From contig NZ_RAQC01000002.1 of assembly GCF_003610405.1 (NCBI RefSeq), positions 310,001 to 374,000 of the forward strand: a DNA stretch of 64,000 nt, in the 5' to 3' direction. Below the pieces are notes generated by a model that saw nothing but the letters and a program-made list of their open reading frames with translations, did no database searches and was not told the DNA's origin. Of this stretch, positions 16,636 to 17,455 are shown piece by piece. A program made the translations under genes and the position numbers. The stretch is from Microbacterium sp. AG238. Its GTDB lineage: Bacteria; Actinomycetota; Actinomycetes; Actinomycetales; Microbacteriaceae. Numbering within the stretch: position 1 is the first letter of the stretch; each line of letters opens with the position of its first letter.

Positions 16636-16677
16636 GGGCCGGGGTACCCTGGGTCGCGGGGCCCCGACCGCGGGTCC

Positions 16678-16718
16678 GCGGACGAGGGAGCAGTACCCGC
16701 ACCAGACAAGACTGACTC
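16678..16718 (+). ncRNA. Guanidine-III (ykkC-III) riboswitch
   Basis: This 41-base element contains the three conserved blocks of the class in order: CGGACGAGG (16679-16687 region), GTACCCG (16693-16699) and GACAAGAC (16705-16712). The pseudoknot is conserved: GCGG (16678-16681) can pair with CCGC (16697-16700), and GAGCAGT (16688-16694) with ACTGaCTC (16711-16718, one bulged A). Known members bind guanidinium and switch translation on. A -10 TACCCT at 16645-16650 places it in the 5' leader, and the exporter start codon is 13 bases downstream. A short GACAG/CTGTC hairpin (16720-16731) abuts the ATG. Confidence 0.87.
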
Positions 16719-16731
16719 GGACAGGTCTGTC

Positions 16732-17046
16732 ATGTCATGGGTGATCCTGATCGCATCCGGCGTCCTCGAGGCGGTATGGGCGGCCGCGCTCGCGGCATCC
16801 GAGGGGTTCCGCCGCAAGCGGCCCGCTCTGCTCTTCGCCGTCGCGCTCGTGGGCAGCATTGCGGGTCTCGCCATCGCGATGACCGAGCTGCCCACCGGCA
16901 CGGCCTACGCCGTCTGGGTCGGCGTCGGCGCGACCCTCACGGTGGTGTGGGCGATGGTGACTCAGCGCGAGCGCGCCTCGGTGGCGCGTGTCCTCCTGCT
17001 CGTGCTGCTGGTGGCCTGCGTCATCGGCCTCAAGGTGGTGAGCTGA
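16732..17046 (+). CDS. Guanidinium exporter subunit (SMR family, Gdx/SugE type), first of a pair
   Basis: The 104-residue protein has four membrane helices. Helix 1 carries the proton/substrate Glu in LEAVWAAAL (E13), and helix 3 has the Gdx-type GTAYAVWVGVGA signature rather than the EmrE-type sequence. The guanidine-III riboswitch directly upstream makes guanidinium export, driven by proton exchange, the best call. It is followed one base later by a paralogous SMR gene, so a heterodimer like YkkCD is likely. The ATG follows a small palindrome and has no strong ribosome binding site. Confidence 0.9.
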   Translation: MSWVILIASGVLEAVWAAALAASEGFRRKRPALLFAVALVGSIAGLAIAMTELPTGTAYAVWVGVGATLTVVWAMVTQRERASVARVLLLVLLVACVIGLKVVS

Positions 17047-17047
17047 C

Positions 17048-17455
17048 ATGGCGCGGGCATGGGTCGTCCTCCTCGCCAGTGCCGTCTGCGAGGCCGTCTG
17101 GGCCACGGCGCTCGGGCAGTCCGACGGGTTCCGCGAGCCCGTGGCGACCCTCGTGTTCGTCGCCGGACTGCTCGTGAGCATGATCGGACTCGGACAAGCC
17201 ATGAAGCGGATCCCGATCGGCACGGCGTACGCGGTCTGGGTCGGCGTGGGGGCGGCGCTCACGGTCGCCTGGTCGATGGCAACCGGCGCCGAGGCGTTCT
17301 CGCCGGGCAAGATCGTCTTCATCGCGGGCATCGTCATCGCCGTCATCGGGCTGAAGCTCGTGCCTGCCTCGGCCCCGATCAGGCGATCACAGGCGGGCGA
17401 GGAGCGCCGGGCCGAAGACGAGGGCCGCCGCGATCGGAACCACGAGCGCCGCTAG
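17048..17455 (+). CDS. Guanidinium exporter subunit (SMR family), second of a pair
   Basis: The 135-residue protein has four helices with the essential Glu in CEAVWATAL (E14) and IPIGTAYAVWVGVGA in helix 3. The fold ends near residue 107; the remaining 28 residues are charged (RRSQAGEERRAEDEGRR...) and unusual for the family, and their DNA overlaps a small antisense-strand reading frame. The stop of the first SMR gene is separated from this ATG by a single base. It most likely acts as a heterodimer with the first gene in guanidinium export. Confidence 0.88.
   Translation: MARAWVVLLASAVCEAVWATALGQSDGFREPVATLVFVAGLLVSMIGLGQAMKRIPIGTAYAVWVGVGAALTVAWSMATGAEAFSPGKIVFIAGIVIAVIGLKLVPASAPIRRSQAGEERRAEDEGRRDRNHERR

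Follow-up and report, generated by a model that had tools for sequence, protein, structure and literature searches.

The ykkC-III RNA, also called guanidine-III, was described upstream of emrE genes, in putative 5' UTRs, with Actinobacteria as a main taxon (Weinberg et al., 2010; PMC2864571), and a mainly actinobacterial distribution of the class is given in a later account (PMC12186494). SMR proteins of the Gdx type that are linked to guanidine riboswitches have already been published (PMC7695847; PMC12186494), as have paired Gdx proteins (PMC9574504). About 20% of Gdx transporters belong to such pairs, and opposite Arg/Lys biases of the two subunits are a mark of heterodimers (PMC9574504). 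Here we describe a locus of Microbacterium sp. AG238 that combines these elements. It lies in a window of 64,000 nucleotides (the whole stretch of DNA that was analysed), and all coordinates are positions in that window. With high confidence, we read it as a guanidine-III ON switch followed by a two-gene Gdx operon for a heterodimeric guanidinium exporter. The aptamer match, the covariation of its pseudoknot, the gene pair, its affinity with Gdx and the opposite charge biases were observed directly, and we infer ligand binding, switching direction, heterodimer formation and transport.

Guanidine-III Aptamer

A cmscan search against Rfam matched RF01763 (guanidine-III, ykkC-III) at 16656-16721 on the forward strand, upstream hairpin included, with 40.3 bits against a gathering score of 36 (E = 5.9e-05 for 64 kb and 4227 families), or 4.3 bits over the cut-off. 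The first-pass annotation had proposed a 41-base guanidine-III element 13 bases before the first of two SMR genes, and both figures are correct: the aptamer core covers 41 nt (16678-16718), and 13 nt (16719-16731) separate it from the ATG of gene A at 16732. At E <= 0.001 the window's genome has no second guanidine-III match and none to guanidine-II or guanidine-I. The P2 pseudoknot helix joins GCGG (16678-16681, forward strand), recognized from the sequence, to CCGC (16697-16700, forward strand), located from the alignment of relatives. P1 joins GAGCAGU (16688-16694, forward strand) to ACUGACUC (16711-16718, forward strand) with A16715 bulged, and both of its strands were located from leader folding and the same alignment. 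None of the four P2 pairs is disrupted, and the conserved blocks ACGA, GUACCCG and ACAAGAC are complete; an A takes the place of the usual C before GACAAGAC.

Guanidine-III elements were surveyed at E <= 0.001 in 148 genomes, including the window's own. Matches occurred in 82 of them (81 over the cut-off), 83 in total, and 81 of the 83 precede ORFs that resemble the SMR proteins of the window (one ORF in 68 cases, two in 13). Inspection of all 83 loci found no SMR-like ORF downstream of the match at L076 or L083. The L083 match, at 32.7 bits, is below the cut-off and likely false, and it was excluded from the RNA alignment; L076, at 43.7 bits, was retained in the RNA counts. The window aptamer ranks 80th by score among the 83 matches and is thus a weak class member. 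Its low score fits two features that also occur in relatives, a shortened joining segment and the bulged A of P1.

The layout of P1 and P2, which we take to be that of the published guanidine-III structure, was then tested by covariation. After removal of identical cores the alignment held 69 of 82 elements (68 distinct). Across P1 and P2 the eight core pairs are present in 99.8% of cells, and relatives show compensatory substitutions; P2 is paired in 100% of cells (68 of 68 distinct rows) and the four inner pairs of P1 in 99.6%. The outer P2 pair is C-G in 56 distinct rows, G-C in 11 and U-A in one, and P1 changes in relatives from C-G to A-U and from A-U to C-G. Double-change cells numbered 33 against a shuffled mean of 6.0, a value reached in none of 500 shuffles, and when the helix partner was slid every slid version was worse and most of the covariation signal was gone. 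Two of the five covariation measures stayed near the shuffles (pairs with a double change, 81/500; further pair types, 17/500). In 7 of 68 rows the fifth P1 pair is not formed; the window's row has G and A in those columns. The check suggested at first pass, a covariance search with the Rfam guanidine-III model, thus returned a match above the gathering score, with both helices supported in relatives. A chance RNA match was rejected on the score and the covariation. Judged by sequence, the RNA is a guanidine-III riboswitch aptamer, predicted to bind guanidinium and to control expression. It shares with RF01763 the covariance model, the conserved blocks, the H-type pseudoknot and the position before SMR genes, but it differs in the outer P2 pair (G-C, compared with C-G in 67 of 68 single-gene relatives) and in the bulged A of P1.

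SMR Gene Pair and Gdx Affinity

Gene A (16732-17046, forward strand; 104 aa) and gene B (17048-17455, forward strand; 135 aa) are one base apart, and ORF prediction, Pfam, a PDB search and trees identify both as Gdx-like SMR subunits. They are the sole PF00893 matches in the window's genome (A 71.9 and B 66.9 bits; cut-off 23.7), and both carry GTAYAVWVGVGA, which bears out the earlier description of two adjacent SMR genes with a Gdx-type motif. By inspection, the SMR residues named in PMC9574504 are kept in A and B: the central Glu (E13/E15), the Trp (W16/W18), the Tyr switch (Y59/Y61) and the GXG fulcrum.

PF00893 is blind to subtype, and resistance to particular quaternary ammonium compounds is known from some Gdx proteins (PMC12186494). 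The pair might then be a Qac-type (EmrE-like) multidrug exporter that stands behind a guanidine riboswitch by chance, and the failure of both proteins to reach the SugE cut-off would suit that reading. We consider it extremely unlikely. SugE is nevertheless the best NCBIfam model for both proteins, ahead of every Qac model (88.4 vs. 44.8 bits for A; 64.2 vs. 48.3 bits for B), and no Qac model cut-off was reached. In the PDB comparison Gdx-Clo scored about twofold higher than the best EmrE chain (A, 69.6 vs. 33.9 bits; B, 66.0 vs. 27.4 bits). A 103-row tree, flagged for its small number of columns, a bootstrap that had not settled and long branches that meet at the Gdx/Qac split, placed A and B with Gdx-Clo and E. 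coli Gdx, while EmrE, MdtI, MdtJ and L094 (labeled Qac-like by us) lay across a 100/93 branch. The comparison with Gdx and EmrE groups that had been proposed thus set the pair on the Gdx side, and the EmrE/Qac assignment was rejected on the model, PDB and tree results together.

The scores of A and B against the NCBIfam SugE equivalog (NF008512) are below its cut-off of 126, which Gdx-Clo and E. coli Gdx pass, and this indicates that A and B are divergent Gdx-like proteins. We therefore file them as Gdx-subtype SMRs outside the SugE equivalog, with guanidinium/proton exchange as their predicted activity. They resemble Gdx (SugE) SMRs in tree position, PDB affinity and the central Glu, Trp, Tyr and GXG, but differ in falling below the equivalog cut-off and in being two specialized subunits instead of one.

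Charge Bias and a Predicted Heterodimer

Arg/Lys bias was calculated with the formula of PMC9574504, using loop limits of our own set relative to the GTAYAVW motif. Subunit A was negative (-1 to -6) and subunit B positive (+1 to +12) in all 13 riboswitch-linked pairs. Lone relatives had a bias of 0 in 62 of 66 cases and of plus or minus 1 in the remaining four; two of the 68 single-gene loci (L067 and L068), whose motif was missed by the pattern, were dropped from this count. The window's values are -5 for A and +12 for B. The value for B includes an Arg-rich C-terminal tail of about 30 residues (17366-17455); when this tail is left out, a hand count gives +3. Loops 1 and 3 of subunit A are positive, so its N and C termini are predicted to be outside; those of subunit B are predicted to be inside. 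The locus has the adjoining genes and the opposite biases of described paired SMRs and differs from them in nothing essential; the long tail of B recurs among the 13 B subunits only in L065 (+11), and the other 11 have at most 5 Arg/Lys there.

Phylogenetic analysis was also used to compare the subunits. A 49-row tree was built without L077, L079, L043, L048, L094, EmrE, MdtI and MdtJ (long branches or outgroups) and with about two thirds of the singles thinned out (22 retained). In it the A subunits form one clade (99/97) and the B subunits another (100/98). Both clades span five family codes (f1, f8, f9, f12, and f14), for which reason the pair looks old. Members of the two clades stand together at 12 of 13 loci having an A; at L090 the motif script recovered only A. 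In the 103-row tree two changes are required for A and two for B, and neither was recovered as one group in any bootstrap tree. There the A and B of L077 cluster with each other and away from the remaining subunits, and a long branch carries the A subunits of L043 and L048. From these placements, pairs may have arisen more than once.

The catalytic residues seen by inspection in both A and B would allow each protein to work as a dual-topology homodimer, the two being merely adjacent. This is highly improbable given biases that are opposite in every pair and neutral in nearly all singles, and given separate A and B clades whose members co-occur. The heterodimer suggested by the first-pass annotation is thus supported by the charge biases of all 13 pairs, and A and B are predicted to form one, which may be obligate.

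Switching Model

The weak ribosome-binding site of gene A was placed by eye at about 16719-16725. In a pseudoknot-free fold of 16656-16745, the leader and the start codon lie in a hairpin with the aptamer 3' strand (-41.7 kcal/mol; z = -2.35); among 200 dinucleotide shuffles, 4 were as stable. This predicted competing hairpin, a putative OFF state taken from the minimum free energy fold, covers the aptamer 3' strand, the leader and the ATG at 16702-16740 on the forward strand. In relatives, the leader scan (3 of 79 loci, lacking the core pattern, were dropped) found a competing helix of at least 4 bp in all except 7 of 76 loci. Leader energies (L036, with a long leader, was dropped from the 79 loci) were -8.9 kcal/mol for the own leader, -5.7 for shuffled leaders and -7.8 for those of other species, and none of 5000 reassignments bound as well (64 distinct strand/leader pairs), a result inflated because the loci are related. 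With one row for each of the 11 P1-strand classes, the median fraction as good was 0.02 (5-95% range 0.00-0.26).

Guanidine-III is described as freeing the Shine-Dalgarno sequence and blocking RNase E scanning (PMC12186494). From the leader folding and this account we infer an ON switch. Without guanidinium, the aptamer 3' strand would pair with the leader, so that the start codon of gene A and its ribosome-binding site would be masked. Binding of guanidinium would stabilize the P1/P2 pseudoknot, which would consume the 3' strand and release the start region, and the bound state, following the literature, would also protect the transcript against RNase E. The products of genes A and B would be two SMR subunits, each with a fixed orientation opposite to that of the other, and would assemble into an antiparallel heterodimeric proton-coupled guanidinium exporter.

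Enforcing P1 in 16656-16760 gave a fold of -34.0 kcal/mol against -45.1 for the free fold, a loss of about 11 kcal/mol (calculated with no pseudoknot or ligand term). This difference, the low score within the class, the P1 bulge and the shortened joining segment could all be signs that the riboswitch has decayed and is non-functional in this genome, leaving the genes expressed without guanidine control. Decay is highly improbable, however, as the identical bulge and P2 type recur before the pairs of L065, L066, L074, and L080, and the P2 pairs and conserved blocks of the window element are complete. A functional switch is the reading that we prefer.

Riboswitch Subtype and Gene Neighborhood

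The subtype of P2 mostly follows gene architecture. GCGG/CCGC was found before 11 of the 13 pairs (all except L043 and L048), before none of the 68 singles, and at L076, while CCGG/CCGG is present in 67 of 68 singles (Fisher p = 6e-12, a nominal value since the loci share ancestry). In the window the pair comes after a CAAX-protease gene, and a relative of this gene is upstream of 37 of the 83 loci, comprising 35 singles and the pairs of the window (L001) and L065; 52 loci were seen over 500 upstream bases only. Two larger regions, L101 (G059, with a pair) and L107 (G035, with a single), have the order DUF3097-TrmB-CAAX in common, and the window's downstream neighbors are present in L101 and were not found in L107. 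None of the window's neighbors is shared by the four other pair regions (L102-L105). G022 has both a single and a pair, at separate places.

Twelve further SMR loci have no guanidine-III match, and the motif pattern gave proteins in four of them (L089, L090, L091, and L094). L091 is a pair with a guanidine-II match directly upstream (38.4 bits; gathering score 32), and the pairs of L089 and L090 have no riboswitch match over a gathering score. The DNA upstream of the Gdx-like pair of L089 contains a palindrome and what looks by eye like a divergent TetR-like start; a regulatory protein may have taken over from the riboswitch there.

The presence of a pair and of singles behind the CAAX-protease gene suggests exchange of a whole cassette. 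A GCGG-type switch with a heterodimeric pair may have replaced a CCGG-type switch with a homodimeric Gdx behind the same CAAX gene, with control elements swapped on a conserved pump; the latter part comes from pair relatives that stand behind guanidine-II (L091) or behind no recognized guanidine switch (L089 and L090). We regard this history as evenly poised between right and wrong. Our earlier judgment was somewhat more favorable, and it was lowered because the gene order is shared with L107 only upstream and because the L077 pair falls outside the A and B groups.

Guanidine-II and Related Elements

Within the genus (taken as G000-G088), 17 genomes have a guanidine-II (RF01068) match over the cut-off, and in 15 of them the match lies directly before an antiporter gene of the Na/Ca-exchanger family (Na_Ca_ex), a relative of that of L113 (L111-L116, L119, L121, L122, L128-L132, and L134). 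This arrangement also occurs at L118 and L135, which belong to the same taxonomic order. In the remaining two of the 17, guanidine-II precedes a Gdx pair (L117) or neither gene was found (L133). Pfam confirmed PF01699 in the five antiporters tested. Guanidine-III is also present in one of the 17 guanidine-II genomes (G077, as a switch without SMR) compared with 58 of 72 other same-genus genomes (nominal Fisher p = 1e-8). A search of 88 genomes, 53 of them G000-G052, found no Na_Ca_ex relative in any same-genus guanidine-III genome, the window's own included. G033 has a Na_Ca_ex gene without a listed guanidine-II match. The guanidine-II-linked antiporter may be a guanidinium exporter that replaces Gdx. 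A literature search found nothing on guanidine-II with a Na_Ca_ex antiporter, and this association is possibly more interesting than the guanidine-III pair.

Two side observations concern related RNAs. The GCGG-type guanidine-III of L076 (the same place as L127; G077:C2) precedes an ORF judged by eye to be cytochrome b-like, and two guanidine-II matches are nearby on the opposite strand, the second directly before the Na_Ca_ex gene. Guanidine-I (RF00442) matched in 24 of 148 genomes at E <= 0.001, one of which reaches the gathering score; the sub-threshold matches may be a related RNA.

Significance

The locus illustrates a known system well and is not a new kind; the finding is right but ordinary, and the link between riboswitch subtype and gene architecture, with its cassette pattern, is a modest addition to published biology. 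The annotation of the two genes changes from small multidrug resistance to predicted guanidinium export. Related species provide a natural comparison, in which lone and paired Gdx proteins have the same upstream genes and different subtypes of one riboswitch class. This comparison offers a way to study what drives the evolution of paired SMRs and whether the riboswitch and its transporter are adjusted to each other.
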